This document shows positions 9,752 through 25,682 of a stretch of 34,724 bases of DNA, piece after piece. The first letter of the stretch is position 1; each line of letters starts with the position of its first letter. Where the stretch lies: assembly GCA_038868975.1 (NCBI GenBank), contig JAWCSA010000006.1, positions 1 through 34,724 of the forward strand. The letters are read 5' to 3'. The translations under genes and the position numbers were made by a program. This DNA is from Nitrososphaerales archaeon (lineage in GTDB: Archaea; Thermoproteota; Nitrososphaeria; Nitrososphaerales; UBA213). The notes under the pieces are model-generated. The model worked only from the letters and a program-made list of their open reading frames with translations. It did no database searches and was not told the origin of the DNA.

Positions 9752-10402
9752 TCAAATATGCTTCTCATGATTCATTACAGTTGAAAGTGCTGCGTTCTTT
9801 GCAGCAAGTTCTGCCGTCCTTTCATCTCCAGCACTGCCTATTATTATGACATCATCCTCTTCTGGCTTTAATTTTTCGATTAATAATCTGCGTATATGTG
9901 GTTCTTTCTTCAACGAGTCATGACTTCTACCAGGCATTACAAACTTATCATCTTTGAATAATAAAGTGGTAGCACCCAAGGCTCCCATTTTTACCGCAGC
10001 ATCTCTTTGTTCTATTCCTGACTTGACTGTAAAGCCGAACTCTTTCAGCAGAACTACATGATTAAATTTACCGAGTCCAATGGAGCACTTTGGAACGCTT
10101 GTCTCTGCAGAAATCGAGGAGGAGAATTCTACACATATTGCCTTTCCCTTACTTGTTAGCTTCATTCCGGCCTTCGTAGTTTCTATCAAATTGTTCATCT
10201 TCAGGTGTTTTACCAGTGTTTTGATAGAGCCTTCTCCAAGTGCTAATTCTTGGCACAATAAGGCTCTACTTGCACGTCCATTATTTTCTATCAGCTGCAG
10301 TGCTTTGAATACGTGTACCACATTGAAGGAAAGAACTCTGCTTGGCGCATATCTGCTTGCAACTTTCATGAGGGCTTTAACATACATGTGCATGTACTCC
10401 AC
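9752..10402 (-). CDS. Winged-helix regulator with DUF4443-type C-terminal domain
   Basis: A protein of up to 216 aa. Residues about 25-95 form a winged helix (VVHVFKALQLIENNG, RALLCQELALGEGSIKTLV, KHLKMNNLIETTKAG, LTSKGKAI). Residues about 100-210 resemble the archaeal DUF4443 domain, with GLGKFNHVVLLK, EQRDAAVKMGALGATTLLF and a closing DDVIIIGSAGDERTAEL. The start may be GTG 10402 or, more likely, ATG 10393. The gene lies 30 bp after the ATPase stop on the same strand, so it may be the last gene of the importer operon, although a TATA-like AAATAAATG is present near 10430-10440. It is a candidate ligand-responsive regulator of the importer. Confidence 0.7.
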   Translation of the reverse strand: MEYMHMYVKALMKVASRYAPSRVLSFNVVHVFKALQLIENNGRASRALLCQELALGEGSIKTLVKHLKMNNLIETTKAGMKLTSKGKAICVEFSSSISAETSVPKCSIGLGKFNHVVLLKEFGFTVKSGIEQRDAAVKMGALGATTLLFKDDKFVMPGRSHDSLKKEPHIRRLLIEKLKPEEDDVIIIGSAGDERTAELAAKNAALSTVMNHEKHI

Positions 10403-10431
10403 CTATATGATGAGCATCTAACCTTGAACAT

Positions 10432-11604
10432 TTATTTGTATGCTATAAGTTTGCCTACTTGATTCTCCAAGAATATGGCAAGATCATTTATCAAACCATT
10501 TTCTACTTTCATATCCTTGCCATAAATATTCAAAACTTCCTCAGAATCCCTAACGGAGAATATTGTCATATTATTGTGATTTGAAAGATTTTTTATCAAC
10601 TCCAGATTCTGTAAATTATGTTTTCCTATAGGAAATCCACTATCAATCAATATCCTTATTTCTGATAGATCTGATATAACATTCGATATCATGTACGATG
10701 GTATCGGTTCGAACGATGGAACGCTGTAAGTTTTCACGTTCATAGTTTTGGCCAAATGAAAATCCAGATCATTTTCTTGTAATATTCCAGTTGAAAACGA
10801 ATAGCCTTTCCTAACAAGTAACCTCAAAATAGGAATACCAGTTCCCGCCCCACTAACTACATGAATGTATCTCATGGACATGTCACCACATCTTAGTTCA
10901 AGTGCACCGAACGTATTACTCCAAGTGGCCATTTTGATACCATACACATTATCCATTAGCGAGTCATGGAAAATTTCTTCAGGCGCTCCAATGCCTCTTA
11001 TGGCACCATCTTCAAGAACTATGACATTATCAGCTATTCTGTATGTTAATTCTATCTCATGCATTGAGGCTATTATAGCGATATTTTGTGTTCTTGCAAG
11101 CTCCTTTAGTTTCAGCAAAATCTCGACTCTGGATTTCGCATCAAGATGAGTAGCAGGTTCGTCTAAGATTAACACTTTGGGTGCTTGCGCCAATGCTCTT
11201 GCGATTAATACTCTCTGTTTCTGTCCATCGCTTAATTCATTGAACTTGCTTTCCAGCAAGTGCTCCACTTCCATCATCGTGGCTGAATCCGCAATCAGTT
11301 TTTTGTCATCTATTGTCAGCTTGCCTAGAAGACCCTGATATGGATACCTGCCCAATGTTATTAGTTCCCTTACGGTCATATTGAACGGATAAACTCTGTC
11401 CGAAAGTACAGTGGATCTTAATCTTGCTACATCTAGTTCATGCAGTTCTGTTACATCTTGTTCTCCAATAAGGATTGCACCCTTTACTGGTTTCAGTATC
11501 TTAGCTAAACATTTCAATAGCGTGGATTTACCTGAACCGTTGGGACCAATCAGCGCTACAAATAAACCGTTTTTTACATCAAGATCTATTGATTTGAGTA
11601 TCAT
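10432..11604 (-). CDS. btuD: ABC importer ATPase, BtuD-like with extra C-terminal domain
   Basis: This 390-aa protein has an ABC ATPase at residues 1-240: Walker A GPNGSGKST, signature LSDGQKQRV (Asp in place of the second Ser/Gly), Walker B KVLILDEPATHLD, and a switch His in ASMHEIEL. Residues about 245-390 form the extra domain seen in archaeal BtuD-type ATPases (IHVVSGAGTGIPILRLL, NLELIKNLS). It powers import of a corrinoid or iron chelate. The frame stays open 18 codons upstream of ATG 11604 and encodes the expected first strand and A-loop (IKAHDLWFGYSSAK), but no ATG, GTG or TTG occurs there before a TGA. The true start is therefore doubtful. Confidence 0.8.
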   Translation of the reverse strand: MILKSIDLDVKNGLFVALIGPNGSGKSTLLKCLAKILKPVKGAILIGEQDVTELHELDVARLRSTVLSDRVYPFNMTVRELITLGRYPYQGLLGKLTIDDKKLIADSATMMEVEHLLESKFNELSDGQKQRVLIARALAQAPKVLILDEPATHLDAKSRVEILLKLKELARTQNIAIIASMHEIELTYRIADNVIVLEDGAIRGIGAPEEIFHDSLMDNVYGIKMATWSNTFGALELRCGDMSMRYIHVVSGAGTGIPILRLLVRKGYSFSTGILQENDLDFHLAKTMNVKTYSVPSFEPIPSYMISNVISDLSEIRILIDSGFPIGKHNLQNLELIKNLSNHNNMTIFSVRDSEEVLNIYGKDMKVENGLINDLAIFLENQVGKLIAYK

Positions 11605-11642
11605 CTTTGCTGAGGAATAACCAAACCACAGATCGTGTGCTT

Positions 11643-12683
11643 TTATTGAGATAGAGCCTCACCCTTTTTTCGTATCAGTATAGAAATGATTAACGGTGCA
11701 CCGATTACTGCTGTTATAGAACTTATCGGCAAATCTATTGGAGGCATTATTATTCGTGCAACAATATCAGCTCCTCCAGTGATCAAGGCTCCGAAGATAG
11801 CAGAAACTGGAATAATTATTCTATGAGAGCCCGAACGCGTTGTAAGTCTAGCCAAGTATGGTCCAGCAATTCCTATAAAGCCAACTGGCCCTGCCGTTGC
11901 TATCACTACAGCCGATAGAACACTTGATAGAATCACAACTTTATTTCGTAAAGATTTGCTTCTTACTCCTATGCTCGTAGCATATCCTTCGCCCAAGAGA
12001 GAGGCGTCAAGGCTTTTGTAGATTGTGTAGCTAGCTAGTATAGTTGACGGAATTATTATGTAAAGATAATTCAGCGCACTCCATGTTATGCCCGAAAAAC
12101 TTCCGAGCGTCCAAGTGTAAAAGACCTGCAGGTTAGCTGCCTCAGCCATTATGCCTAGTACACTAATCATTGACGATAAAACGAAACTTATCATCAGGCC
12201 AACAAGCAAGAGTGTGGTTGTATTGGAAAGTGCGGGAATTATGGCCATAATTACAAGCATTGTTAGGATTGCTCCAGCAAAAGATGCGATGAATATAGCT
12301 TCTAGGCTTTGCGAATAAAGTTGAAAACCTAGACTTATACCCCCCATTATTAGCAGTGCGACTGCCAGCGACGCACCAGATGATATGCCTAAAATTGAAT
12401 CACTGGCAAGTGGATTTCTAAATAATGCTTGCAGCAAAGTTCCAGCAACCGCCAATCCTGCACCGCCAATTATTGCTGCTAACGTTCGTGGAATCCGTAT
12501 CTTCCAAATTATATTCTCCATCACACTGTCTTGGCACTTCCCAGTAAAGCATGACACAGTATTCTCAAGCGAATATTTTACAGAGCCCAGACTCAATCCA
12601 CCAAATACTATCAATGGGATCAAGATGATTGCTATGACCACAAAATATGAATGGTTTTTCTGCTGTAACAGCATGCTAATCAC
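11643..12683 (-). CDS. btuC: FecCD/BtuC-type ABC permease
   Basis: A protein of about 346 aa with roughly ten membrane segments, the usual length of the FecCD family. Family landmarks are WKIRIPRTLAAIIGGAGLAV near residue 60, LFRNPLASDSILGISSGASL, GPVGFIGIAGPYLARL, and a C-terminal GGADIVARIIMPPIDLP followed by GAPLIISILIRKKG. The dimer forms the channel for a corrinoid or iron-chelate complex. GTG 12683 overlaps the stop of the binding-protein gene; ATG 12674 is an alternative start. The ATPase coding sequence follows with overlap or nearly so, giving a tightly coupled operon. Confidence 0.88.
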   Translation of the reverse strand: MISMLLQQKNHSYFVVIAIILIPLIVFGGLSLGSVKYSLENTVSCFTGKCQDSVMENIIWKIRIPRTLAAIIGGAGLAVAGTLLQALFRNPLASDSILGISSGASLAVALLIMGGISLGFQLYSQSLEAIFIASFAGAILTMLVIMAIIPALSNTTTLLLVGLMISFVLSSMISVLGIMAEAANLQVFYTWTLGSFSGITWSALNYLYIIIPSTILASYTIYKSLDASLLGEGYATSIGVRSKSLRNKVVILSSVLSAVVIATAGPVGFIGIAGPYLARLTTRSGSHRIIIPVSAIFGALITGGADIVARIIMPPIDLPISSITAVIGAPLIISILIRKKGEALSQ

Positions 12684-13791
12684 AAGCTACTTTCTTGAAC
12701 TGTTTCAATTCGTGAGTTTTGAATTCATCAGGATGCAGGATCGCAGCCATGTCACTCATATAATCATCAACTCTGTCGACCCTTTGCCAGTACCAAGGTT
12801 GGAATGCGTATACATTGCATGCTTGAATCGGATGAAGTGCTTTCAATAAAGGAGATGCTGCTAGTATTTCACTAGTGCTATTAACTATATCAGAATAGAT
12901 AAGCACATCAGCACCGCCTGCACGCGAAATAAGTTCTTCTAGACTTATCTGTGCAGAACCAGTTCCAGCTACATCACTAAAAATATAGTTGCCATTAGCC
13001 ATATTGATTATTTTGCCGGCGTAACTTTCCGCTTTAGGGATGTATACTGTGCCACGGAATACAGCTGCCCAAAGAACATCAGGTTTATCAAGTTTTGACA
13101 CACTCTGCGATATCTCAAGGGTCTTAGTTTTTGCTTCAGTGTATATTGCAGCTGCCTTATCTTCATCATTAGTGAAAAGTGAAAAGAATTTTATCCATTC
13201 GAAATAACCTAAAGGATCATCCTCGAGCCATTCTGAATTAACGACATAGTCTATGCCTAGTTCATCGAGTTTCTTTGCATGTTCCTCCCATAAACCAGTC
13301 CCTCCTATAAGAATAACTAGATCTGGTTCTAATGCTACGATTTCATCATAATTGGGATTGTTGCTGGGTCCAACATCTTTTATTCTTCCATTTTTCAGAC
13401 CGTCTTTGATGCTGTCTATGTACCACTCATAATTTCTTCCCCATGCCACACCTACGACCTTGTCAGAAATCCCCAATCGGTCTATGAATGCTGCATGGGT
13501 CGAGGAGAATATTACCATCCTGCTGACAGGAACTTTGATCGTATCGTCTGACTTTATTTCAGAATTTGAGGTCAGTGTAAGGGTTCTGTTAGCACCATCT
13601 ATCAAGATCTTGTTGTCATCGATATAAGATACTTGGAACTTCTTTGCCTGCTCCAGTTTGAGTGGTGTGCTAAGTATCTTTGCGTCATTTGTTGGTTGTG
13701 GATATTGGGATCGTTGATACATGATTATAGACGTAATTGATATGGCAACAATTATTGCAGTAACAATTAGGATTCTTGGCTTGGTATCCAT
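12676..13791 (-). CDS. btuF: Membrane-anchored binding protein of corrinoid/iron-chelate ABC importer
   Basis: This 371-aa protein has one N-terminal hydrophobic segment (residues about 8-24), likely an uncleaved anchor. A linker leads to a class III periplasmic-binding (PBP2/BtuF/FepB) fold: VPVSRMVIFSSTHAAFIDRL, VGVAWGRNYEW, YDEIVALEPDLVILIGG, LISRAGGADVLIYSD, and a C-terminal WYWQRVDRVDDYMSDM. It captures the substrate outside the cell and hands it to BtuC. Corrinoid rather than siderophore is favoured by the BtuD type, but the substrate cannot be read from sequence. ATG 13791 sits about 25 bp from a TATA box next to a palindromic operator, so it is probably leaderless and repressible. Confidence 0.82.
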   Translation of the reverse strand: MDTKPRILIVTAIIVAISITSIIMYQRSQYPQPTNDAKILSTPLKLEQAKKFQVSYIDDNKILIDGANRTLTLTSNSEIKSDDTIKVPVSRMVIFSSTHAAFIDRLGISDKVVGVAWGRNYEWYIDSIKDGLKNGRIKDVGPSNNPNYDEIVALEPDLVILIGGTGLWEEHAKKLDELGIDYVVNSEWLEDDPLGYFEWIKFFSLFTNDEDKAAAIYTEAKTKTLEISQSVSKLDKPDVLWAAVFRGTVYIPKAESYAGKIINMANGNYIFSDVAGTGSAQISLEELISRAGGADVLIYSDIVNSTSEILAASPLLKALHPIQACNVYAFQPWYWQRVDRVDDYMSDMAAILHPDEFKTHELKQFKKVACD

Positions 13792-13854: not shown

Positions 13855-13882
13855 GTTGGATAAACCATCCAAGACTTTAAAT
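13855..13882 (+). promoter_or_regulatory. TTGGAT-N5-ATCCAA operator plus TATA box for pilin gene
   Basis: The palindrome TTGGAT-AAACC-ATCCAA (within 13855-13873) is followed two bases later by the TATA box TTTAAAT (13876-13882), which lies 25 bp before the pilin ATG at 13907. The two palindromes are centred 30 bp apart, close to three helical turns, so two dimers would sit on the same face of the DNA. Confidence 0.7.
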
Positions 13883-13906
13883 GCAACCACAGTGAGAGGT
13901 ATTGCA

Positions 13907-14680
13907 ATGAAGAATAATACGATGCACGCAAAAAGAAAAGGTCTTAGCTCCTTGCTAGCTACAGTGATATTGATTGCGGTAACAGTAGTGGCTGGTGGAG
14001 CCGTATACGGTATCTATACCCAAGGCGCTGGTGTGGCAGGCAATGTCAACATCATTACAGTTGGGGACATAAACATGGTTGCTACTCAAGATCATGGAAG
14101 CTTTTCGATGACAATAAAGAACGGAGGAAACAATGCTTGGAAATCGGTCGCAATAAATGCATTCAAGGGACAGTTACCAGCGGCCATATTCTACCGACCT
14201 ATAACTTGGTCAGCCAGTGGTACGTCACATGGTGGAATAGATCCAGTGTTTCCCAGCAACATAGTTGATTTGAAACCTGGTGACAATAACGGAGGGCTGA
14301 TAGGCATTGGAAATCTGATTTCATACAGTACAACCAATCCAGTTTTCTGGGGACCTGCCCCATTTGGGCTCACACTTCGGCCAAGCGCTTTGTGCGCTAA
14401 CGTTCCGAATGATATGGCAGCTGTCTCCTTCATCGATACTGATGGCAACTGTACCAATGGAATTCAATCATATGTGGGGAAAAAGATCGAGCCGATACAG
14501 CCAGGTGGCACCATTTCTCCAGCTGCATTTGTCCTGACCAAGCCAATCCTTGATTCGTCTGGAAACCCACTTTTTGAACACGACACCGTAACCAAAGGCG
14601 ACACCATAGTGATCAGCATAATCGTCGAAACTGTTGATGGGAGCAAAACGCAAAAAGAAGTACCAGTGAAGGTATTATGA
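13907..14680 (+). CDS. Type IV prepilin-like protein (archaeal class III signal)
   Basis: This 257-aa protein starts with the class III prepilin signal: KRKGLSSLLATVILIAVT, with cleavage by the prepilin peptidase expected after the Gly of KRKG, then a hydrophobic helix that packs in the fibre. The remaining roughly 210 residues are an extracellular beta-rich head with two or so cysteines. Start ATG 13907 is chosen because the TATA box at 13876-13882 fits it; the longer frame from 13856 overlaps the operator. Close relatives in the locus are 19784-20638 (same order of motifs, TVDG near the C-terminus). It is probably a major pilin, co-regulated with the divergent importer. Confidence 0.85.
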   Translation: MKNNTMHAKRKGLSSLLATVILIAVTVVAGGAVYGIYTQGAGVAGNVNIITVGDINMVATQDHGSFSMTIKNGGNNAWKSVAINAFKGQLPAAIFYRPITWSASGTSHGGIDPVFPSNIVDLKPGDNNGGLIGIGNLISYSTTNPVFWGPAPFGLTLRPSALCANVPNDMAAVSFIDTDGNCTNGIQSYVGKKIEPIQPGGTISPAAFVLTKPILDSSGNPLFEHDTVTKGDTIVISIIVETVDGSKTQKEVPVKVL

Positions 14681-14757: not shown

Positions 14758-14862
14758 TTACGTCGTTTCAAACTGCTTATAAGAGGAAATTATCATGATC
14801 ATAGATACAAAAGATCGTTAAATAAATTGTTAGGGGTGACTAATTAGGGGAGCCTAAGTTCT

Positions 14863-15549
14863 ATGAGCGTCTTGTGTGGAGAGTGCATGATCACCGCTGC
14901 CGAAGTGGATGGCGAATACACATGTGTGAAATGCGGTAGAGTATTTGGATCAGTAGAGGTTGCAGGGATGGAGGAGATACGATCCCATTACATATCCCAT
15001 GCAGAATATGGCGCGAAACAAATTAGCAAATATGCTAACAAGCTAGTTACCTGCCTTAACCTACCAGACTTTGCGCTTGAAACCATAATCAGGGTTGCAA
15101 ATGAACTAACGGAAGCAAAGGTAACACAAAAGCAGGCATTATTGTTTGCAACCTTGTATGCTTGCAGGGAGTATAATATTCCAAGGCTTTTAGGAAATAT
15201 TCTAGATGCAATGCGAGAGGTATATGGAACTGAAATTGCAAAATCATCTGCATCGCTACTAAAGATGCTTAACAAAATTGCAAAGAAGGCCTACGAGTTT
15301 GGCTACAAGATCAGATCACCAGACAAGCATTACTACCTGAAAGCGTATTTAGCTAAAATTCAGAGTTTGGTAATAAATGACACTAGCAGCGAGTATTACG
15401 AGTATCTTAGAAGCCGTGCCTTCAAGGCAATAGAAAGGTTTGACACAAGGGATGCGAGTTACGCTGCAAAGAATGCAATAATCTGCAACACATGCAGGGC
15501 TTTGCAGTGGAAACTCCAAAGAGTCTTGGCAGGAGATCTAAATGTCTGA
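14863..15549 (+). CDS. TFB-like (TFIIB) transcription factor paralogue
   Basis: This 228-aa protein has the TFB layout in a short form. A zinc ribbon at residues about 5-24 uses CGEC and CVKC. A reduced linker lacks a clear B-reader motif, and two cyclin-like repeats follow (about 55-130: FALETIIRVANELTEAKVTQ, ALLFATLYACREYNIPRL; about 130-220). Standard TFB has about 300 residues, so this is a divergent paralogue that may direct RNA polymerase to special promoters, here presumably pilus genes. It overlaps the ParB-like gene by 8 bp, so the two are made together. It could alternatively act as an anti-initiation decoy. Confidence 0.75.
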   Translation: MSVLCGECMITAAEVDGEYTCVKCGRVFGSVEVAGMEEIRSHYISHAEYGAKQISKYANKLVTCLNLPDFALETIIRVANELTEAKVTQKQALLFATLYACREYNIPRLLGNILDAMREVYGTEIAKSSASLLKMLNKIAKKAYEFGYKIRSPDKHYYLKAYLAKIQSLVINDTSSEYYEYLRSRAFKAIERFDTRDASYAAKNAIICNTCRALQWKLQRVLAGDLNV

Positions 15550-16486
15550 GATCGAAATAAAGCTAGCAGAACTAAACGACAATCCATGGCGTTTCAAAGT
15601 AATATCTGCTAAGGATTTTAATAACTTGGTAAATACAATAACAACTTACGGTTCGCATGCAACAAACCCGATTCTTGTTGCAAAGATAGAGGGAAAGTTT
15701 TACATCGTTGACGGTCATGCCAGGAGAGATGCAGTAGCTGAAGCTGGGTTCGATAAGGTAAGATGCATTGTAGCAGAATGGATTAGGAACCTTAACGATC
15801 TAAGGATCTGGGCTTTCAGGCTCAACAGGCACGGCCACTATAATCCTCTAGCACTGCTGAGGATGGTAAAGGAAGACATCGAGGCGCTTGGTAGCGTGGA
15901 GAAAGTTTCAGCCTATTACGGTGTAAGCAGTGAATACGTAAACACATTGCTCAAGTTGGATGCTTTGGATGATTCCGCTAAGGCTATGGTAGATAAAGTG
16001 ATCGATATCGCTAGAAAAAGATACCAATTCGTTTTGGAACAGATCGATGCGTACCATCTGGCTAACATTGCAGAGTTAGAACCTGAAAAACAGCTCGAGG
16101 TGCTAGAATGGTTGTTCCATGACATAATTTACGGCCCTCCAAACGAATCGCTGGTATCATTGCCAAGCATTTACGAAGTTATTAATGAAATAGATAGACA
16201 CAAATCGGTTGCTGGTGCACCAAATGTTGTTCACAAGAAGTATCGAACCAAGGATCATTCACTCCATGGTGCTGATCACTTGGAATTCAAATGTTCCTGC
16301 GGAAACAGGTTCCATGTAGATTTCTTTACTGGCAAAGTGTATGAATATGTTGAACAGGACTACCTGATCATCAAAAAGGAAGTGGAACTAAGTGATGGTG
16401 TTTTACACGAAGAGACAAACAAGTCCAAAAGAAATCAACAGAAACGCATAGCGGGTTCTGGGAAACTACAATCTATCAACACTTAG
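15542..16486 (+). CDS. ParB/Spo0J-like DNA-binding protein
   Basis: This 314-aa protein has a ParB N-terminal domain at residues about 10-85: NPILVAKIEGKFYIVDGHAR followed by RDAVAEAGFDKVRCIV, where DGHARRDA stands for the family's GxxRxxA box. A ParB-type helix-turn-helix region follows (RMVKEDIEALGSVEKVSAYY, then GVSSEYVNTLLKLDAL). Near residue 250 a CSCGNRFHVDFF segment may hold metal or form a knuckle. No ParA ATPase is nearby, which argues against chromosome or plasmid partition and for a regulatory use of the fold. It is translationally coupled to the TFB-like gene and followed 10 bp later by the winged-helix gene. Confidence 0.75.
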   Translation: MSEIEIKLAELNDNPWRFKVISAKDFNNLVNTITTYGSHATNPILVAKIEGKFYIVDGHARRDAVAEAGFDKVRCIVAEWIRNLNDLRIWAFRLNRHGHYNPLALLRMVKEDIEALGSVEKVSAYYGVSSEYVNTLLKLDALDDSAKAMVDKVIDIARKRYQFVLEQIDAYHLANIAELEPEKQLEVLEWLFHDIIYGPPNESLVSLPSIYEVINEIDRHKSVAGAPNVVHKKYRTKDHSLHGADHLEFKCSCGNRFHVDFFTGKVYEYVEQDYLIIKKEVELSDGVLHEETNKSKRNQQKRIAGSGKLQSINT

Positions 16487-16496
16487 AGGAATAAAG

Positions 16497-17135
16497 ATGA
16501 AGATAGGTAAAGTGGAGAGGCTTGTTTTACTGTTACTCAAACAACATAGCATGAATACAAGTGCTTTATCGACGATTTTGCGCGCAAACGGTCATGTTAA
16601 AACAAGTCTTAGTGTCAGGCGGGCCATAAAGACATTAAAACTGAAGGGCTTGATAGATCATTCGAACAAGCTAACCCGAGCTGGTACTAGGCATATCAAA
16701 TTTATTAAAAATAAGGATCACACAAGCGTCAATATCGCGAATTTTGATGTGAATGTTTTAGACAACAGGCTCAAACTTGGAATAAAGGCTAAAGTATTAC
16801 TTTACATTCTAACGAAAATAGATCATGCATCATTGCAATTCCTAGCTATGATAACTAAGGAGCATGCAAAAAATATTTCAGCAGTTCTCAACAGGCTAGA
16901 AGATAATGGATTGGTTTACGGATACAAGAATATGATAACATTCACCAATGCACGAGGTAGACGCTACAGACCGAAGTATTGCAGAATCACAAATGTAGGT
17001 AGGCTAATCTCATTGGCAACCAGATCCGAAATCAGTAACTTGGCAAGTGCAATTGATACTTCACTCGAGGATACGCTCAAGTTAAAATCTGAGATGCGCC
17101 AACTCCACCCGCATGATAGATATGCCAAGACATAG
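16497..17135 (+). CDS. Two-domain winged-helix regulator
   Basis: This 212-aa protein seems to contain two winged helices. The first covers about residues 1-65 (VERLVLLLLKQHSMNTSALS, RRAIKTLKLKGLIDHSN, LTRAGTRHI). The second covers about residues 90-170 (IKAKVLLYILTKIDHASLQF, NISAVLNRLEDNGLVYGYKN, RITNVGRLI), with a helical tail. It is the third gene of the TFB-ParB operon, with a 10-bp gap, and converges on the two minor prepilin genes. It is likely a transcription regulator of the pilus locus; no ligand domain is seen. Confidence 0.7.
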   Translation: MKIGKVERLVLLLLKQHSMNTSALSTILRANGHVKTSLSVRRAIKTLKLKGLIDHSNKLTRAGTRHIKFIKNKDHTSVNIANFDVNVLDNRLKLGIKAKVLLYILTKIDHASLQFLAMITKEHAKNISAVLNRLEDNGLVYGYKNMITFTNARGRRYRPKYCRITNVGRLISLATRSEISNLASAIDTSLEDTLKLKSEMRQLHPHDRYAKT

Positions 17136-17159: not shown

Positions 17160-17615
17160 TCATGGTCTGAACTCATAAACCCTTCCATTTTCGGTTATCA
17201 TAATCATGCGGTCAGCAAAGGTTTGGTTGACAAAGAGTTTTATTGTAGAATTGGTTGGCAAGGTAGGCAAGACCTTGCCAAGCGGTTTCTTGAAGTTCGC
17301 ATCGGACAGAAGATAGGTATCAAATTGCTGAGCTGTTCTGTTTCCGTCAACTAATACCTTTGCAATTGTAACATTATTGAAGCCATAGTTGATAATGTAT
17401 GCTGTGCTGTTTTTTGCAGTCTTCGTGACCAAGATCTTTGTGAGTAGTTCTGTTGCTTTATCATTTGAACTTTGTAATGCTTCACTTACACTTACCATAT
17501 TGCCAAATATGCGTTCTCTTGATAGCGATACGTAAATTGCTGTGCCAGTAACTACAACCATGATCAGTATTACTGCAGAGAGAATTTCACTTAGGCCTTT
17601 ACGCTTCCTTGACAT
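17160..17615 (-). CDS. Minor prepilin-like protein
   Basis: A protein of about 151 aa opening with SRKRKGLSEILSAVILIMVV, a class III prepilin signal with Glu at position +5 after processing (KRKG-LSEIL), as in true pilins. The head is small, with many potential N-glycosylation sequons (NST, NVT, NRT, NQT). ATG 17615 overlaps the stop of the upstream prepilin gene by one base (TGATG), so the pair is translationally coupled. It is likely a minor pilin or pseudopilin of this apparatus. Confidence 0.8.
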   Translation of the reverse strand: MSRKRKGLSEILSAVILIMVVVTGTAIYVSLSRERIFGNMVSVSEALQSSNDKATELLTKILVTKTAKNSTAYIINYGFNNVTIAKVLVDGNRTAQQFDTYLLSDANFKKPLGKVLPTLPTNSTIKLFVNQTFADRMIMITENGRVYEFRP

Positions 17616-18109
17616 CAAATCTTATCTGACTCCTTGCATGGCAGGATATGTGATGTTACTGTTCTGGATGAGTCCGTTGCATTTCCGAGCACATCCATAG
17701 TGTACGTTTGACAGTTATTCCACGCAACACAATTATTGAAAAAAGGCAGAATGCCTGTACTGTTGGTAAAAACTGTACTATCAAACGTTATTGTATCACC
17801 TGGGTCGATAGATTTCATTATATTTGCAGGTAACTCACTGTCTCGAATAGTTAATGTACCATTCTTATCTGTGTGTATCTCAAGTTTCGTACTAACAATC
17901 GGCTCTGTGCCAGTATTGATCAACTTGACATGAAGAAAACACTCCTTATTTCCACTTTTGGTTAGCGATGCATCTATAACACCATACTCTGTCTTGCTGA
18001 AACCAACGATGGAAAACTGGTTTGCTATATTGAATATCGATGTACCAGCAGCAACAGCTATTCCAATAAGAAGGATAGTACCCAGTATGGTGCTCAGTCC
18101 CTTTGCCAT
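17615..18109 (-). CDS. Minor prepilin-like protein
   Basis: A protein of about 164 aa beginning MAKGLSTILGTILLIGIAVA, a class III prepilin signal with a very short basic leader. The head (about residues 35-164) has an archaeal flagellin/pilin-like beta domain with LHVKLINTGTEPIVSTKLEI, and cysteine pairs around ECFLHV, NNCVAWNNCQ and LPCKES. ATG 18109 is preferred to the upstream TTG because a minus-strand TATA-like AATTTTAACG (about 18123-18132) then gives a leaderless start. It is first gene of a two-gene minus operon, diverging from the secretion ATPase. Confidence 0.8.
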   Translation of the reverse strand: MAKGLSTILGTILLIGIAVAAGTSIFNIANQFSIVGFSKTEYGVIDASLTKSGNKECFLHVKLINTGTEPIVSTKLEIHTDKNGTLTIRDSELPANIMKSIDPGDTITFDSTVFTNSTGILPFFNNCVAWNNCQTYTMDVLGNATDSSRTVTSHILPCKESDKI

Positions 18110-18122
18110 TACCAATCTATCA

Positions 18123-18143
18123 CGTTAAAATTTGCTATTTAAG
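18123..18143. promoter_or_regulatory. Back-to-back divergent TATA boxes
   Basis: A minus-directed TATA-like element (AATTTTAACG, about 18123-18132) and a plus-directed one (CTATTTAAG, about 18135-18143) practically touch. Each lies about 25 bp from a start codon (18109 minus, 18168 plus). TFB/TBP can hardly occupy both at once, so the prepilin pair and the ATPase should compete for initiation. Confidence 0.5.
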
Positions 18144-18167
18144 AGAAACAGAACATATTATCTTGGA

Positions 18168-19718
18168 ATGGAGCTCCTTAAGGGGAAGAAAAAGGACGAA
18201 GAAGAGCGTGGTATTACGTTTGAGCTTCATTGTCTTAGTGCTAGTGAATATCTTGATGGCGCAAATATACTGGCAAGGTACAATGTAGGGCAGGCAACAG
18301 TCACCATAGCCGAGAGACCTGATGGCAAGGGCGTTTACCTAATTGATGAACCACAGATGACGGAGAATGATAGAATATTATATGCTCAGATAATGAAGCA
18401 GATGTTCCTTTCTGCCAAGCCAATCTATGGTACACCTGAAGAAAAGATTCATGCCCACATAAAGGAACAGATTCTCAGTGTAAGTAACAGCATTGGTCTA
18501 GGCAAGAGTACAAGGTATGCTATTGACAAACTGATGTACTACATTATCCGTGACATGGTTAATTATGGCATAATCGGAGTCACGATGCTTGATCCTGATA
18601 TTGAAGATATCATGGCGGAAAATTACAACGTTAATGTTGGGGTAATACACAGAAAATTTTCAGAATACGGAATACTTGACACAAACATTCTGTTCAAAGA
18701 CTCTAACAGAATGAACGCGTTCGTGCAGAAACTTGTTCAGAGGTGCAGTAAAACAATTACAGCAGCAGTGCCTTATGTTGACGCAATAACAGACGAGGGT
18801 CACAGGATCTCAGCCACCTTTGGAAAAGAGATCTCATTACCTGGTCCTAATTTTACTGTCAGGAAGTTTAGTTGGGATCCTTTCACCATAACAAACCTGA
18901 TCAACTTCAACACACTAAATTCGCTTCTAGCAGCCTATATCTGGCTCCTGATCGATGTCAAGGCATTCCTGCTTGTTATAGGTCCCACGGCAGCAGGCAA
19001 GACAACCACAATAGGCGCGATAATATCTATGATGCATCCTAGCGTAAAGGTCACAACGATAGAAGACACGCCAGAGCTGAGGATCCCTCATGAACACTGG
19101 CAGAGGCTGATAACAAGGAAGGGTTACAACATATTTGAAAGCAAGTACGATATAGACATGAACGCATTAGTCAAGCTTGCACTTAGGTCAAGACCAGACT
19201 ATATCATAGTTGGCGAGGTCAGGGGAGAGGAGGCATCAAGCTTGGTGCAGGCTGTAGCGACAGGACACGGCGGGATAACAAGCTTCCATGCTAGCGATCC
19301 TCAATCTGCTCTTGTAAGACTCGGCAGTCCACCGTTGAACGTACAATTAGCAGGTCAGATGCTGATCTGGTGCTTCGTCAGACAGAATAAGGTTACACAC
19401 AACGGCAAGATGGTCAGGCGCATAATGGATGTTACTGAAGTTGTTCCAACAGATAATTCAATAGGGTTGAAGAGGGTATTCGAATGGAATCCTGTGGACG
19501 ATAGATACAGACCAGACAATATCGATGAACTGACCAAGTTATCTCCTAGGCTAAAGGAGATCCTGACCTTGAAGGGTTACACGGAAGAGGACTTGAAGCA
19601 AGAATTATGGCGAAGGCAGGAATTCTTGGAGTATCTTCTAACCACAAAGAAAGAGAAGTTCATTGATATTGTCAGGGAATTCTCTAGATTCTATCTGAAT
19701 CAAGTGAAAAAACAATAG
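18168..19718 (+). CDS. Type IV pilus/Tad-type secretion ATPase (GspE/TadA/FlaI superfamily)
   Basis: A protein of about 516 aa. The N-terminal region is helical and specific to archaeal forms. The ATPase core has DGHRISATFGKEISLPG-like and NFTVRKF segments near residue 250, Walker A GPTAAGKTT near 290, an Asp box TIEDTPELRIPHEHW, Walker B RSRPDYIIVGEVRGEEA, and a His box VATGHGGITSFHA. It assembles pilins by ATP hydrolysis at the cytoplasmic face with the T2SSF protein at 20703. The usual GPTGSGKT has become GPTAAGKT, keeping the Lys and Thr. Start ATG 18168 is favoured by the TATA box at 18135-18143; an in-frame alternative lies at 18132. Confidence 0.92.
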   Translation: MELLKGKKKDEEERGITFELHCLSASEYLDGANILARYNVGQATVTIAERPDGKGVYLIDEPQMTENDRILYAQIMKQMFLSAKPIYGTPEEKIHAHIKEQILSVSNSIGLGKSTRYAIDKLMYYIIRDMVNYGIIGVTMLDPDIEDIMAENYNVNVGVIHRKFSEYGILDTNILFKDSNRMNAFVQKLVQRCSKTITAAVPYVDAITDEGHRISATFGKEISLPGPNFTVRKFSWDPFTITNLINFNTLNSLLAAYIWLLIDVKAFLLVIGPTAAGKTTTIGAIISMMHPSVKVTTIEDTPELRIPHEHWQRLITRKGYNIFESKYDIDMNALVKLALRSRPDYIIVGEVRGEEASSLVQAVATGHGGITSFHASDPQSALVRLGSPPLNVQLAGQMLIWCFVRQNKVTHNGKMVRRIMDVTEVVPTDNSIGLKRVFEWNPVDDRYRPDNIDELTKLSPRLKEILTLKGYTEEDLKQELWRRQEFLEYLLTTKKEKFIDIVREFSRFYLNQVKKQ

Positions 19719-19783: not shown

Positions 19784-20638
19784 CTATGCTCCTGTAACCC
19801 TTACCAAGGTTTGCATCTGGGCTTCTTCGCCATCAACTGTAACGACTTTAATGTTAACCACCAGCTCGTCTCCAACATTCACCGATACAGGTTGTAGCTG
19901 CTCATTTGCTCTTGCATTAAGTCCACTCAGGGTAGATGAAGAAAGCGTATTACTCAGAAGAAGATCTGCATAGAATCTCATTGATTGACCTGGTGTTATT
20001 GGTATTTTCATATCTTTTGTGGTTCTAACATCGCAGCCAGGTTTATCACCAGTACCGTCACCGTTAGTATCTATCTTCATAGTGCTGCAATCTGCAGATG
20101 CAGCTCCCTTCCACTTGGAATCAATACTATTGAGCTTCCCGTCTGATGGGGCACTTATGCCTTCTAAAGCTACTGTTCTCTTAGCTGGCGCTCCTTTAAG
20201 TGGGTCTGGGTCATCATCAATTTTTAGAACGAACTTTCTTCCTATACCAATGCCAAAGCCATCAGAAGTTACGCCAATAGCCTCAGCTCGCAGCGAGTTA
20301 TCTGTATTGCTAGTTTGGTCCGTACCCGTTGCCATTTCATGCAGTTCTTCATACAGTATTGGTCTACTTGTAGCCTCTTTGCTTACCCATACCTCGATTT
20401 GCTTCCATGGATTGGTACCTGCGTTAGTGACTGTAATTGCAAAATCTGCATGACTGGAACCCTTTACAGCTGTTACCGAGTCTACTTTAATTACGTTTAA
20501 ACTGCCTGCCGCCGCACTGCTTCCGGTGTACATTAAGTATACAGCACCGCCAGCTGCCACAGTTACGCCTAGCAGGATCACTGTTGCCAGTAGTGGACTA
20601 AGCCCCTTTCTCTTTCTATTTGTCAATATATGGCCCAT
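19784..20638 (-). CDS. Type IV prepilin-like protein, large
   Basis: A protein of about 284 aa with the class III signal KRKGLSPLLATVILLGVTVA, nearly the same as in the pilin at 13907, and the same closing TVDGEEAQMQTLVRV pattern. The head has a DTNGDGTGDKPG loop that looks like a calcium-binding repeat and a cysteine pair (DCSTM and GCDVR). ATG 20638 is preferred to the TTG at 20644. It is likely a second major pilin and a paralogue of the first. It is transcribed away from the membrane-platform gene, from a shared 64-bp intergenic region. Confidence 0.87.
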   Translation of the reverse strand: MGHILTNRKRKGLSPLLATVILLGVTVAAGGAVYLMYTGSSAAAGSLNVIKVDSVTAVKGSSHADFAITVTNAGTNPWKQIEVWVSKEATSRPILYEELHEMATGTDQTSNTDNSLRAEAIGVTSDGFGIGIGRKFVLKIDDDPDPLKGAPAKRTVALEGISAPSDGKLNSIDSKWKGAASADCSTMKIDTNGDGTGDKPGCDVRTTKDMKIPITPGQSMRFYADLLLSNTLSSSTLSGLNARANEQLQPVSVNVGDELVVNIKVVTVDGEEAQMQTLVRVTGA

Positions 20639-20702
20639 TTTCAACTATAACACTATACGTTGAACTTGCCTTATAACAGAAATTTTGGAATCCATATTTT
20701 GA

Positions 20703-22703
20703 ATGACATATCTGAACAGCAAGGATGCACCATCATTGATGATAATCAGCGGGGTCGTAGTAGTGCTGACAGCATCACTGTTGTATTTAATGGACGAATC
20801 ATCACACCAGTTGTTTATTCTAATGACTTTTGGGTCAATCGCTATCACATCTACACTTTCATTAAAATTGCTGAGAAGAAAGCACATAAAAAATCGGAAC
20901 GAATCACACAATGCAAAAACAAATAGATCCTTACATGTTGGAATATTAACAAGATACTTGGTACGGAGCATAAGCACAGACGTTTTAAGATCTGGCAGAC
21001 CAGAAGATACCGCATTCATAGTAAAAAAATTCCAGAAGTATTCTCTGGTTTCTGCTGCTGTGGTTGTTCCTCTGATGTTGCTAGTTTTGGTTGCTGCACA
21101 GATGGAACTCGCACAGTTTGAGGAAGCTAGGATCAGTATTGCCGAGAATACCGTTGAGATCGAAGATCCAGAACTGTTCATTAGGGGGGAACTCGAAGCC
21201 ATTCCACAACCGGACGCGCCTAAGCTGGTACTGGCACCAATTGCACCATTTCTAGCAGTGTCTCTGGGTATATTTCCTCTGCTACTTCTTTTCTACCCAA
21301 AGATCATGTACACAGGTCTGAGGCGGAGCAGGAAGACGATAGTCGAAGAAGAACTACCTTTCTTCAGCCTCTATGCAGCTATTTTACAAAGTGTAGGTAC
21401 AGACCTTTACTCGAGTTTCATCATCACAATAGGAAAGAATGTCTTCAAGGCTATCGAAAACGAGGCATTGCTGCTGAAAAGGAATGTAGAGCTCTTCGCG
21501 AGATCTCCGCTGGAGGCATTAGAAGAACTTGGCAGGAATCATGATAGCATGGCTTTCAAGAACTTTCTGCTTGGTTATTCCAGCATAGCTCGTAGCGGGG
21601 GCGATCTGAGCAGATACCTAGAAACCAGAGCAGAGGAGCATTTCAACTTGTTAAAGCTGAAGTATTCTGCATATTCCAGAAACGTTGGTTACCTAGTCGA
21701 AGCGCTGATTGTTATGCTTGTCATAGTCCCAATATTGGTTGTTGTATCCGCCTTCATACTTCCAGCAGCTACCATATCACAGCTGCTCCTTCTGAGTAGT
21801 GTTGCGGTACCGATGCTTACCATAGTGTTTGCGATACTGCTTGCAAATATTCAGCCGAGAATGTTCAATATGATAGGGCTCAAGGATATAGCCGTATTAG
21901 CATTCCTGCCAGCAGCTATCATTTCATTCTTATTCTTTACACTTTTGGGCCTTGAATCATGGATGTCGCTTGCGTTAGCAGCAATTATTCCAAGCGTAAT
22001 TAATGAATATTTTACGACCAAGCACAGAAGACAGATCGAGTTTATGGAGTCCGCGCTTCCAAACTTTTTGAGAGATGTGACAGAATACAGAAAGATCGGT
22101 TTTCACGAGATCACAGCAATAATCAGAATCTCAAAAGAAAACAGATACAATAGTGCCTTTGATCGACTGCTTCGAACACTATCAAGACTGCTGGAACAAG
22201 GTTACACACCTACTCAGATAATGAAAATGATAAAGATACGATCATGGTTTGCTAGGGTTACATTTTTCACGCTTGCCCAGATAGCCGAGTCTGGAGGTGG
22301 CGATCCCGCGGTGCTTGAATCCATAACAGGATTTGTTAGCAGTGTCAGGACGACGTTGAGGGAAGCAAAATCATCAATATCGATTTATGGCATTCTCGGT
22401 TATGCTGCTCCAGTTATACTTGCCTTTACAGTTGTGGTGATAAATGAAATGCTGGGCACAATCACACCTGATTTGTTAAAGGGCATTGGCAGTGAGTCCT
22501 TTGCACAACTGGTAACCGTAACTCCCTTGTTCAATGCAACAATAAAGACATTCATAGTAACAAGCAGTATAGGAACTGCGATAGTTATAGGCAAGGCAAT
22601 AGACAGGACATTCAAGAGCACTGGAAGAATTGCTATCATCTGTGGTCTGGCTATAGCATCACTCATCATTACCGAGAATATATCAATTCCAGGGCTTGGA
22701 TGA
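20703..22703 (+). CDS. Pilus assembly membrane platform, double T2SSF (TadC/FlaJ/UpsF-like)
   Basis: This 666-aa protein has about nine membrane segments and two T2SSF domains. The first lies around residues 210-370 (VEEELPFFSLYAAILQSVG, LEELGRNHDSMAF, YSSIARSGGDLSRYLETRAE). The second lies around residues 450-600 (FMESALPNFLRDVTEYRKIG, FFTLAQIAESGGG, REAKSSISIYGILGYAAP). It anchors the secretion ATPase and extracts pilins from the membrane. Size and double domain match archaeal type IV pilus platforms. TATA-like CCTTATAAC (about 20669-20677) fits the ATG at 20703. The prepilin gene at 22737 follows closely. Confidence 0.9.
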   Translation: MTYLNSKDAPSLMIISGVVVVLTASLLYLMDESSHQLFILMTFGSIAITSTLSLKLLRRKHIKNRNESHNAKTNRSLHVGILTRYLVRSISTDVLRSGRPEDTAFIVKKFQKYSLVSAAVVVPLMLLVLVAAQMELAQFEEARISIAENTVEIEDPELFIRGELEAIPQPDAPKLVLAPIAPFLAVSLGIFPLLLLFYPKIMYTGLRRSRKTIVEEELPFFSLYAAILQSVGTDLYSSFIITIGKNVFKAIENEALLLKRNVELFARSPLEALEELGRNHDSMAFKNFLLGYSSIARSGGDLSRYLETRAEEHFNLLKLKYSAYSRNVGYLVEALIVMLVIVPILVVVSAFILPAATISQLLLLSSVAVPMLTIVFAILLANIQPRMFNMIGLKDIAVLAFLPAAIISFLFFTLLGLESWMSLALAAIIPSVINEYFTTKHRRQIEFMESALPNFLRDVTEYRKIGFHEITAIIRISKENRYNSAFDRLLRTLSRLLEQGYTPTQIMKMIKIRSWFARVTFFTLAQIAESGGGDPAVLESITGFVSSVRTTLREAKSSISIYGILGYAAPVILAFTVVVINEMLGTITPDLLKGIGSESFAQLVTVTPLFNATIKTFIVTSSIGTAIVIGKAIDRTFKSTGRIAIICGLAIASLIITENISIPGLG

Positions 22704-23255: not shown

Positions 23256-25682
23256 ATGAAAAGGCTTACTCTTGCAATCTTATTAACAACTTTACTAGTG
23301 GCCAGTAGTTACTCGCAAGGATATGCATTTCCTAGTAGTATCAAAAAAGTTGAATTCTGGGCACCTCCTGTTATGCTTGAAGGACACGAGTATGACGTAA
23401 TACTTGTACTGGTTGGTTACAATGCAGAGGAAACCAGGTTCGACATCCTTAGCAATAATGAAAATATCGTTAGTGTGATTGATAGAGAAATAACCATAGA
23501 ACCATTCAAAAGCCATGGAATAGCGAAGGTCAAAGCAAAGTCTGCTGGCAAAGTTGATCTCTTTGCAGTATCAGGCGATGAATTGCTAACAGCATCTGCT
23601 GAAGTTGTGGAACCTGCTCTCATGCCAGCAAAGCTCGATATCGTTCTTCCATCAAACAGAGTAGCGGTAAACCAGATTCCTGCGTATGTATTTCTTGTTG
23701 ACGCTTTTAATAATCCATTGCAAGCAACTGAAGATATCGAAGTCAATGTCGGCTCATTTGGCAATCTCTATGCACAGGTAAGCAAGACCGTAATAAAGAA
23801 AGACACGCATTATTCAAAATTTATCATCGATGTTAAAGGAGATGGAGGAGTAACCGCTGCTACTAACAATCTGCAACCAGACACAGAAATGATAGAATTT
23901 GCAAGTGTATCCGATGATGTGGAACTCAAAGTAGAGGTAGCACCAGATCCGCTCGCCACTAGTTCCTCTGGTGAAGTTTATGTTTGGTTGGAAAAGGACG
24001 GAAAACCTTTTGTTCCAGAGAGGAATGTCAAAGTTACACTTGCAACAGAAGATAGCAGATTTCTAGCATTTTCAAAAGCGGTTCAATTCTCTGCCCCACT
24101 GGATCGCGATCTTGTTTCTACAGCAGAGATATTCATCAAGGGCGGTGAGTCTTATGCTCACACGATGGTTTGGACTACGGATTTCCTTATTAAAAACCAG
24201 CAACAAAACCAACAGGTAAACCAAACCACAACTAACAACGAAGATGACGAGGAAGAAATAATTATTACTGCAATAGCTGATGGATTCGATTCTGCAGAAA
24301 CAACTGTAGAGATAAGACAACCAGTTCAAAATGACCCAAATCTTGCAAGGATCTTTGCATTTCCAGATCCAGCTATTGATAAATTAGACATCATAATAGC
24401 ACTGTATTTTATCGAGGAAACTAGCTTAGAACCTGTTGCCATTAGCGAAAGTATAGTTGCACATGTATCAACAGACTCCTTACTGAGAGCCGCATACGAT
24501 AGAGTACGATTGGACAAAGATGACCTTGACATTAGGGATCATTACACAGTGATACCAGCTAGAACACTAGGAATGCCTGGTACTTCAAAGATCTTCGGTG
24601 TTGCAGATGGAACTAGGGGTGAAAAAATAGAAATCAGAATAGAAAAACCGTATTCATCCATACCGACAATTGCTGTAAAACCACTGCCAGTCTTAGCCAA
24701 TGCCGAGCAGGACATGTTCCTCATTTATAGTGTTAAAGATGGTGCCGTGACAGATTTGAAAATTAAAAACCCTGTTGTCAGCACCAAACCTGCAATAGAG
24801 ATCGGGAAGATACGTGATATAAGCTCGATAAATGTTGTGAATGGAAAATCTTCCGATCTTGTGTCAGGAAGAATAGTAGATGTCACTGTACTCGCATCGG
24901 GATTTGTAGGTGCTGCTGCAACAGTAACACCGTTTAACCCAGAGCTTAGAAACATAGTAGCGTACCATCCACCCACGGTACATGCTGGAGAACCTTTCCC
25001 TGTGGTATTTTATGCCACAGATCAGAACAAGCATCCTATAGAAATCGTAGAACCGTCAATCTCTCCAAAGACAGATATGGTCAAAATGTTACAAAATTCC
25101 TTCATACTGTCATCCAGCAACGAACATAGTTTTGTATTCTATGCAGAGAGTATGAATCCAGGAATATCTAAGATAGAATCCTTTTCATATGATATTACAT
25201 TAGAGGCGTCAGTCGGTGATGAACAATTCGTGCTCGGAGATGATATAACATTAACATACCAAGTTATCCCCGCTGATGCAAGGATTACATTGGATGCAGA
25301 TCTGCCATTCGAGAGAAATGGGAATGGTTTTACAATAGAATCCACAATACCAGGAAGCCATACACTTCTGCTAACGGCTGAAAAAGAGGGATTTAAGAGC
25401 ACAAGCAAAGAGATTCAAATAGAGATCACGGATACTTTCGCTGTAGGTTTAGGTGCAGGAACTTTAGAACCCGGTAAAAAATTTGACTTCGACATTCTAC
25501 TAAAACCCAATTCCGCAACATGGCTTGCTTACGTTGGAATACTCATTGCTATCGCAGGAGGCGCGTTCTATATTTTTACCAAAAAGAAGCTCAAAAGATC
25601 TCCAAACGTAGAGTCAGAGGAAGAACTGACATATTTGTTTAGAGGTTGCTCTGATAAATGGACTTCGATCTTGCCACAATAA
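23256..25682 (+). CDS. Large surface protein with Ig-like repeats and C-terminal anchor
   Basis: This 808-aa protein has an N-terminal signal peptide (cut near GYAF). A chain of beta-sandwich, Ig/invasin-like domains follows, for example PAKLDIVLPSNRVAVNQIPA, VELKVEVAPDPLATSSSGEV and a closing FILSSSNEHSF. A flexible Q/N/D/E-rich linker lies at about residues 315-335 (NQQQNQQVNQTTTNNEDDEE). A membrane helix at about 755-775 (WLAYVGILIAIAGGAFYIF) precedes a short KKKLKR stop-transfer. It probably stands on the membrane outside the cell as a pilus accessory or an adhesin. Its last 25 bp overlap the prepilin peptidase, so the two are coupled. Confidence 0.75.
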   Translation: MKRLTLAILLTTLLVASSYSQGYAFPSSIKKVEFWAPPVMLEGHEYDVILVLVGYNAEETRFDILSNNENIVSVIDREITIEPFKSHGIAKVKAKSAGKVDLFAVSGDELLTASAEVVEPALMPAKLDIVLPSNRVAVNQIPAYVFLVDAFNNPLQATEDIEVNVGSFGNLYAQVSKTVIKKDTHYSKFIIDVKGDGGVTAATNNLQPDTEMIEFASVSDDVELKVEVAPDPLATSSSGEVYVWLEKDGKPFVPERNVKVTLATEDSRFLAFSKAVQFSAPLDRDLVSTAEIFIKGGESYAHTMVWTTDFLIKNQQQNQQVNQTTTNNEDDEEEIIITAIADGFDSAETTVEIRQPVQNDPNLARIFAFPDPAIDKLDIIIALYFIEETSLEPVAISESIVAHVSTDSLLRAAYDRVRLDKDDLDIRDHYTVIPARTLGMPGTSKIFGVADGTRGEKIEIRIEKPYSSIPTIAVKPLPVLANAEQDMFLIYSVKDGAVTDLKIKNPVVSTKPAIEIGKIRDISSINVVNGKSSDLVSGRIVDVTVLASGFVGAAATVTPFNPELRNIVAYHPPTVHAGEPFPVVFYATDQNKHPIEIVEPSISPKTDMVKMLQNSFILSSSNEHSFVFYAESMNPGISKIESFSYDITLEASVGDEQFVLGDDITLTYQVIPADARITLDADLPFERNGNGFTIESTIPGSHTLLLTAEKEGFKSTSKEIQIEITDTFAVGLGAGTLEPGKKFDFDILLKPNSATWLAYVGILIAIAGGAFYIFTKKKLKRSPNVESEEELTYLFRGCSDKWTSILPQ

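Follow-up and report, generated by a model that had tools for sequence, protein, structure and literature searches.

A TFB–ParB-like–winged-helix operon associated with an Ups/Bas-like pilus locus in Nitrososphaeria

The 34,724-nucleotide stretch of DNA considered here (the window) is contig C6 (JAWCSA010000006.1) of the assembly GCA_038868975.1 of a Nitrososphaerales archaeon, a genome of 1.82 Mb in 133 contigs that shares its order, and not its family, with ammonia-oxidizing archaea. At positions 14863–17135 it carries an operon of three genes on the forward strand—the trio—which encode a truncated paralogue of the transcription factor TFB (TFB∗), an orphan ParB-like protein, and a winged-helix protein (wH2). 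The trio lies within a type IV pilus locus, that of an Ups/Bas-like pilus, and is probably a dedicated regulator cassette of this pilus, a reading that is given a probability of roughly 0.6. It always travels with the pilus and with a distinctive promoter motif and is therefore probably a pilus on/off switch.

Linkage of the trio to the pilus

The open reading frames (ORFs) of TFB∗ and the ParB-like protein overlap by 8 bp, and 10 bp separate the latter from wH2, exactly as described in the initial annotation. The surrounding pilins were likewise recovered, together with the genes of an ATPase, a platform protein, and a peptidase (Table 1). Among 150 sampled genomes of the class Nitrososphaeria, the trio occurs in six others (G061, G122, G083, G091, G028, and G065), always adjacent and in the same order, with identities to the window proteins of 39–43% for the TFB-like and 39–45% for the ParB-like protein. 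The wH2 gene is seen only together with the trio in this sample, which also contains no close copy of one trio gene without the other two. Confinement of the genes to the identical six genomes, adjacent and in the same order, is therefore not a matter of chance.

All seven trio loci adjoin the genes of pilin A, pilin B, the ATPase, pilin C, the platform protein, the pilin-like protein, and the secreted protein; conversely, seven of the eight loci whose pilus is of this type (ATPase identity of at least 50%) carry the trio. The exception is G092, which has the same pilus (ATPase 60% identical) with neither the trio nor a remnant of it in the gap. The trio loci are found in ammonia-oxidizing archaea and in a related lineage and span two families at approximately 40% protein identity. 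A trio found mostly away from pilus genes or on plasmids with ParA, which would have spoken against the initial annotation, is not what was seen: the plasmid, phage, and viral collections searched hold no relatives of the trio. No ORF of the loci scanned has a ParA-type P-loop motif, and no ParA family is present among the window proteins searched, in agreement with a ParB-like protein that lacks a ParA partner.

Promoter elements of the trio loci

The gaps between pilin B and the ATPase gene and between pilin C and the platform gene—16 and 58 bp between the called ORFs in the window—each hold a single TATA box set within a dyad, TTTTSCTTATAAGSAAAA. On either side, most start codons are 25–37 bp from the dyad centre; G028 departs from this, with 55 bp to the ATPase start and 64 bp to the platform start. 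A matrix was built from the pilin–platform gaps only, with each genome's own site left out. It ranks the platform gap first in 7 of 7 loci and the ATPase gap, which was never in training, at 5, 2, 2, 2, 4, 1, and 9 of 35,000–100,000 positions. The symmetric element is absent from G092, where the best positions in the corresponding gaps rank 33–95, and from the loci checked of the integrative and conjugative element (ICE) type, which carry other TFB–ParB pairs.

A palindrome, TTAGGNNNNCCTAA, stands at the TFB∗ start in 6 of 7 loci. It is exact in G061 and G122, has one mismatch in G083, G091, and G028, and is not clear in G065; in G061 and G122, the cassette start is the sole exact genome-wide match to TTAGGNNNNCCTAAT. 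Together with TTTTCCTTATAAGGAAAA and the two symmetric elements of the pilin gaps in the window, this palindrome is a candidate binding site of the trio proteins. Palindromes of the form AACAT...ATGTT, found in several loci between the ends of wH2 and pilin A, were set aside; they are followed by T-runs between convergent genes, and a terminator is therefore equally likely.

Features of the three proteins

TFB∗ features a zinc ribbon, formed in the window protein by C5, C8, C21, and C24, with a GE..C..CG core that is invariant in 7 of 7 members; Zn_Ribbon_TF matches four of the seven, weakly (best 2.2e-3). In a global hhalign alignment with the TFBs of the source genome (E=9e-10), a gap of approximately 60 residues falls between the ribbon and the cyclin fold, and the B-reader/B-linker region is gone. 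The first cyclin repeat is clear and the second weak, and the AlphaFold2 (AF2) model overlays the two-repeat core at a TMt of 0.6. The protein ends at canonical position ~286 of 306, approximately 20 residues short of the TFBs of the source genome.

Single TFB∗ sequences stay below recognition by Pfam TFIIB, and profiles are therefore needed: a PF00382 search of the source genome recovers three canonical TFBs and not TFB∗. The family profile matches TFIIB structures at E=4.5e-4 and reaches values as low as 1e-7 against TFBs from across the phylum. The AF2 model (pLDDT 78) leads in Foldseek to TFIIB in preinitiation complexes (1d3u and 1c9b, TMt 0.60 and 0.61). TFB profiles are thus matched by the family and not by the single sequence. 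The initial annotation of a short TFB paralogue without a clear B-reader stands as to TFB identity and loss of the B-reader, but TFB∗ is not simply B-reader-less: the C-terminal end is apparently truncated too. Its zinc ribbon is kept.

In canonical TFB, the ribbon recruits RNA polymerase, the linker consists of B-reader and B-linker, and the second cyclin fold touches the B recognition element (BRE) (PMC7289017). Given these functions and the losses in TFB∗, the latter should therefore dock and not direct. The apparent shortening at the BRE-reading end argues for a putative adaptor role over that of a stand-alone initiation factor.

The ParB-like protein features a ParB/Srx fold and a central helix–turn–helix (HTH). 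ParB_N matches the window protein below threshold (1.4e-4), yet it is found in all seven family members; TIGR00180 is matched at 5.3e-8, below cut-off, and the ParB structure 4umk at 1.6e-7. Foldseek with the AF2 model leads to ParB, Noc, and KorB, the best TM-score in the PDB list being that of KorB of RK2 (8qa9, TMt 0.66). The GxxR of the Box II P motif is G58-H-A-R61, with G58, H59, and R61 invariant in 7 of 7 members. For the ParB-CTPase fold, the nucleotide that is bound is poorly predicted from sequence. The motif (L/F/I)G[K/R]G(L/F/I), which mediates ParA binding (PMC12704722), is not seen on inspection of the window protein.

The third gene encodes a double winged-helix protein, as annotated: MarR (1.1e-3) and wHTH (5e-4) are both matched below cut-off, and the wH2 profile matches PadR structures at 1.7e-4. 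Homology to wh9, the third gene of ICE-type cassettes, is not claimed, the match (E 8e-4, probability 25%) being a generic wing match only.

The pilus locus

The matches to UpsF, BasF, FlaI, and BasE are all below the NCBI naming cut-offs, and the pilus is therefore termed Ups/Bas-like and not Ups itself. The role of pili of this kind in ammonia oxidizers is unknown (PMC7554672).

Table 1. Genes of the trio and the pilus locus and candidate promoter elements in the window
Feature	Position	Strand	Characteristics
Type IV pilin-like gene upstream of trio, paralogue of 19784–20644	13856–14680	+	one N-terminal hydrophobic segment; homologous to pilin C genes of other loci
Candidate symmetric TATA element upstream of TFB∗, AACTGCTTATAAGAGGAA	14771–14788		third-best of 34,707 positions with matrix from pilin–platform gaps of other genomes
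Palindrome TTAGGGGAGCCTAA just 5′ of TFB∗ start, candidate autoregulatory operator	14844–14857		counterparts at TFB∗ start in other loci
TFB∗, truncated TFB paralogue, 228 aa	14863–15549	+	TFB-type zinc ribbon; B-reader/B-linker missing; first cyclin repeat present, second degenerate/shortened
Orphan ParB-like protein, 314 aa	15542–16486	+	ParB/Srx-fold domain, GxxR motif, HTH, divergent C-terminal CxCG part
wH2, 212 aa	16497–17135	+	two winged-helix parts, C-terminal one PadR/MarR-like
Pilin A	17160–17618	-	one N-terminal hydrophobic segment; in all 7 loci
Pilin B	17615–18115	-	Pilin_N 0.07, below cut-off; in all 7 loci, divergent from ATPase gene
Symmetric TATA element, pilin B–ATPase gap, TTTGCTATTTAAGAGAAA	18131–18148		weak copy; ATGs 28 and 30 bp from centre; rank 5 of 34,707
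Pilus assembly ATPase, FlaI/BasE-like	18132–19718	+	T2SSE 6.5e-31; FlaI 5e-95 and BasE 2.9e-88, below cut-off; likely start ATG 18168
Pilin C	19784–20644	-	hydrophobic N-terminal segment; in all 7 loci
Symmetric TATA element, pilin C–platform gap, CTTGCCTTATAACAGAAA	20665–20682		ATGs 29 and 35 bp from centre; top window position with matrix of other six loci
Platform protein, UpsF/BasF-like (TadC/T2SSF)	20703–22703	+	T2SSF 4.2e-15; UpsF 6.3e-72 and BasF 5.3e-67, below cut-off
Pilin-like protein, 180 aa	22707–23249	+	RRGVAGL, then hydrophobic segment; in all 7 loci
Large secreted, C-terminally anchored adhesin-like protein, 808 aa	23256–25682	+	signal-like N-terminus, hydrophobic C-terminal segment, no Pfam match; in all 7 loci
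Prepilin peptidase	25658–26359	+	Arc_PepC_II 1.9e-9, Peptidase_A24 3.7e-6

The pilus locus is adjoined at 9752–13791 by B12/iron-type uptake genes (periplasmic-binding protein, FecCD permease, and ABC ATPase) and a DUF4443 regulator. Two direct copies of an insertion sequence (IS) with HTH_28 and rve transposase parts, at 7832–8634 and 27586–28387, are 93% identical over 806 bp and 19.75 kb apart; they enclose the trio, the pilus, and the ABC genes of BtuF/FecCD type, and a further partial copy (84%) is found on contig C28. A composite transposon was considered and rejected—the GC content of the core is not different, and no such IS frame was seen around the other six loci—and the pair is treated as incidental. 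An AIM24 family protein at 29804–30391 (2.8e-45) is unrelated to the trio. PADLOC gives no meaningful match to a defence system.

The wider TFB–ParB family

A wider survey ran profiles against 400 genomes of the order and protein searches against the 150 genomes of the class. It yields 48 loci with a TFB-like gene directly before a ParB-like gene, 33 of them followed on the same strand by a third small DNA-binding-type gene; these numbers are not independent and contain near-duplicates. Over the 48 pairs, TFB distances correlate with ParB distances at r=0.94, a value reached in 0 of 2000 permutations. Many of these loci sit with VirB4-, VirB6-, and PrgI-like genes and are of ICE type; other pairs (G001, G013, G017, G109, and G131) are immediate neighbours of pilus genes that lack the VirB4 type. 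A midpoint-rooted tree, in which some branches are long, places the trio-type ParBs in one clade (support 100/99), apart from the ICE types and on the side of the VirB4-less pairs.

Several further arrangements were observed in this survey. Nitrosotenuis carries a second cassette of TFB, ParB, and third gene (L196, G083:C1:573310–579896; also L197, L198, and L199) in the order large secreted protein, TFB, ParB, wh9, prepilin peptidase, with no VirB4 among the labelled neighbours. At L176 (G172:C1:848634–850110), the gene of a 155-aa single-cyclin TFB overlaps that of a 342-aa T2SSE-type ATPase by 20 bp, like the arCOG05559 operons (Makarova 2016). Solo ParB-like genes of approximately 290–300 aa (family f4; L215–L219 and L222) share a chromosomal neighbourhood that is conserved and free of TFB and pilus genes, and together with other solo ParBs they form a separate clade (98/90). 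Downstream of many ICE-type cassettes, at a distance of one to a few genes, stands an MreB/actin-like gene (cluster c20, 4.3e-7; L191:2093–2953 and equivalents), which is a candidate for a filament partner that replaces ParA in these cassettes.

Proposed mechanism and alternative explanations

As a regulator of the pilus, TFB∗ would dock on RNA polymerase via its zinc ribbon and on TBP via its cyclin fold; alone, it would be unable to select a start site or read the BRE. The DNA address would be provided by the ParB-like protein and/or wH2 through binding of palindromes—the symmetric TATA element and TTAGGNNNNCCTAA at the cassette start—and the two proteins may perhaps add a nucleotide-dependent switch. 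Jointly, the trio proteins would switch on the divergent promoters and limit their own synthesis. Dedicated initiation control of the pilus, as put forward in the initial annotation, is plausible on these sequence grounds and strengthened by the trio-specific promoter element. By analogy, activation is probably likelier than repression because TFB3 of Sulfolobales activates ups genes. A farther-reaching and doubtful version is that of a split initiation factor, in which a TFB without its start-site and BRE parts works only with a ParB-fold partner, possibly nucleotide-switched, and a winged-helix partner, and is addressed to symmetric bidirectional TATA promoters. If true, this would be a sigma-factor-like, regulon-specific initiation system for archaeal surface pili.

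Several points weigh against a dedicated pilus regulator of this design. The apparent loss of the last C-terminal helix of TFB∗ is seen in a profile alignment that is weak in this part, and the AF2 model was built from 3 sequences and has a pLDDT <50 around the joint of ribbon and cyclin fold. Both pilin gaps were seen by eye before the matrix was trained, and the ranking is therefore a check and not a blind test. The pilin B–ATPase copy in the window is weak (rank 5), and the symmetric element at the TFB∗ promoter occurs in the window only and not in the other six genomes. The cis element has a single genome as its negative control, G092, in which the pilin genes are also oriented differently, and a symmetric TATA may be just the look of any short bidirectional promoter.

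Trio and pilus could also be the relic of an integrated conjugative element, whose KorB-like TFB–ParB module once checked copy number, partition, and transfer genes and maybe exerts no specific regulation now. TFIIB–ParB operons are a hallmark of thaumarchaeal ICEs (PMC6563490), and related cassettes of TFB, ParB, and a third gene occur with VirB4-, VirB6-, and PrgI-like genes in several genomes. The distribution is patchy, an integrase is present 12 kb from the trio in G061, and in G083 and G091 a VirB4 locus lies approximately 34 kb away, which leaves room for an ICE origin. However, no VirB4 relative was found in G061 or G065, and the source genome has only a sub-threshold match on another contig; the window proteins searched include no VirB4/VirD4 ATPases, VirD4 not having been searched separately. 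In the six genomes other than G061, no integrase lies close to the trio, and no tRNA-flanking direct repeats surround the core, the window contig being too short to rule out an integration site in the source genome. Together with the clade formed by the trio ParBs on the VirB4-less side of the tree and with intact frames at ~40% identity over two families, which imply selection, this makes a mere relic rather unlikely.

Repression of the pilus by the trio is unlikely in turn, since TFB3, the nearest studied truncated TFB, is an activator and a dedicated TFB would be an odd choice for a repressor. In such a module, TFB∗ would be a decoy that holds TBP on the symmetric TATA and keeps the promoter closed, with wH2 and the ParB-like protein as co-repressors and the pilus off until a signal removes them. 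Loss of the B-reader/B-linker could indeed let TFB∗ bind without starting transcription, and the palindromes overlap the TATA box and adjoin the cassette's own start codon, which are typical repressor positions; moreover, KorB, the best TM-score match of the ParB model, is a repressor acting together with the small protein KorA. Least credible is a cassette with another target of regulation or segregation, joined to the pilus by co-inheritance alone. The pilus without trio in G092 and the separate contigs of a related trio and pilus genes in G136 would fit this, whereas the linkage in 7 of 7 loci across two families and a cis element that tracks the trio make it very improbable. If the trio does serve the pilus, there would be a second archaeal lineage in which truncated TFBs are connected with Ups-type pili, and a first handle on how these pili are regulated; the ParB-like protein would be a candidate archaeal ParB-fold protein for transcription control and not for DNA segregation. 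The defined promoter element is testable in vitro.

Comparison with known systems

TFB3 of Sulfolobus, like TFB∗, is a TFB paralogue tied to Ups-type pili, and no specific sequence relationship between the two was found in this analysis. TFB3 is a truncated TFB paralogue as well; its gene lies away from ups, and it is not known to have a ParB or winged-helix partner. In Sulfolobales, TFB3 activates ups genes and is no substitute for canonical TFB. It works in trans beside the canonical TFB for Ups-type pili (PMC7289017, PMC10470591). A further point of difference is the response of TFB3 to DNA damage. The KorB–KorA system of RK2 resembles the trio in combining a ParB-fold regulator with HTH and a small DNA-binding partner. 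Unlike KorB–KorA, which controls plasmid genes, the trio is archaeal, no plasmid is involved, and no homology of wH2 to KorA is shown.

TFIIB homologues, including arCOG01981 and arCOG05559, occur in many archaeal pilus loci (Makarova 2016; PMC4858521). They share with TFB∗ the position of a TFB paralogue and predicted regulator in a type IV pilus locus, and arCOG05559 also has a single cyclin domain; unlike TFB∗, they come without a reported ParB or winged helix. The arCOG05559 type differs further by its restriction to the Pyrobaculum–Thermoproteus group and to an ATPase system without recognised pilins (PMC4858521).

The closest arrangement is that of ICEs: all identified thaumarchaeal ICEs encode TFIIB, mostly immediately upstream of ParB, and the coupling to ParB appears ICE-specific (Krupovic 2019; PMC6563490). 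As there, the TFB homologue of the trio stands directly upstream of the ParB-like gene on the same strand, with a pilus-type ATPase, TadC, pilins, and a prepilin peptidase nearby. Unlike there, the TFB of the trio is shorter and has lost the B-reader, and the operon has a further DNA-binding gene as its third member. A VirB4 locus is not attached, two to three of the genomes having none whatsoever, and attachment sites or a nearby integrase are mostly missing. The trio loci do not look like ICEs.

The initial annotation knew of no described system with this trio, which is too strong in view of the TFIIB–ParB operons of thaumarchaeal ICEs (PMC6563490) and the TFIIB homologues of many pilus loci (PMC4858521). 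The finding itself is real and better supported than the sequence alone could have allowed at first reading, yet less unprecedented, as the TFB–ParB pair has been published for ICEs. As far as the literature examined goes, the pilus-bound three-gene version, its truncated TFB, and the trio-specific symmetric promoter have no earlier description. TFB–ParB operons, so far considered specific to conjugative elements, are here met in a three-gene version tied to an Ups/Bas-like pilus; what is new is the third gene, the version without VirB4, and the cis element.

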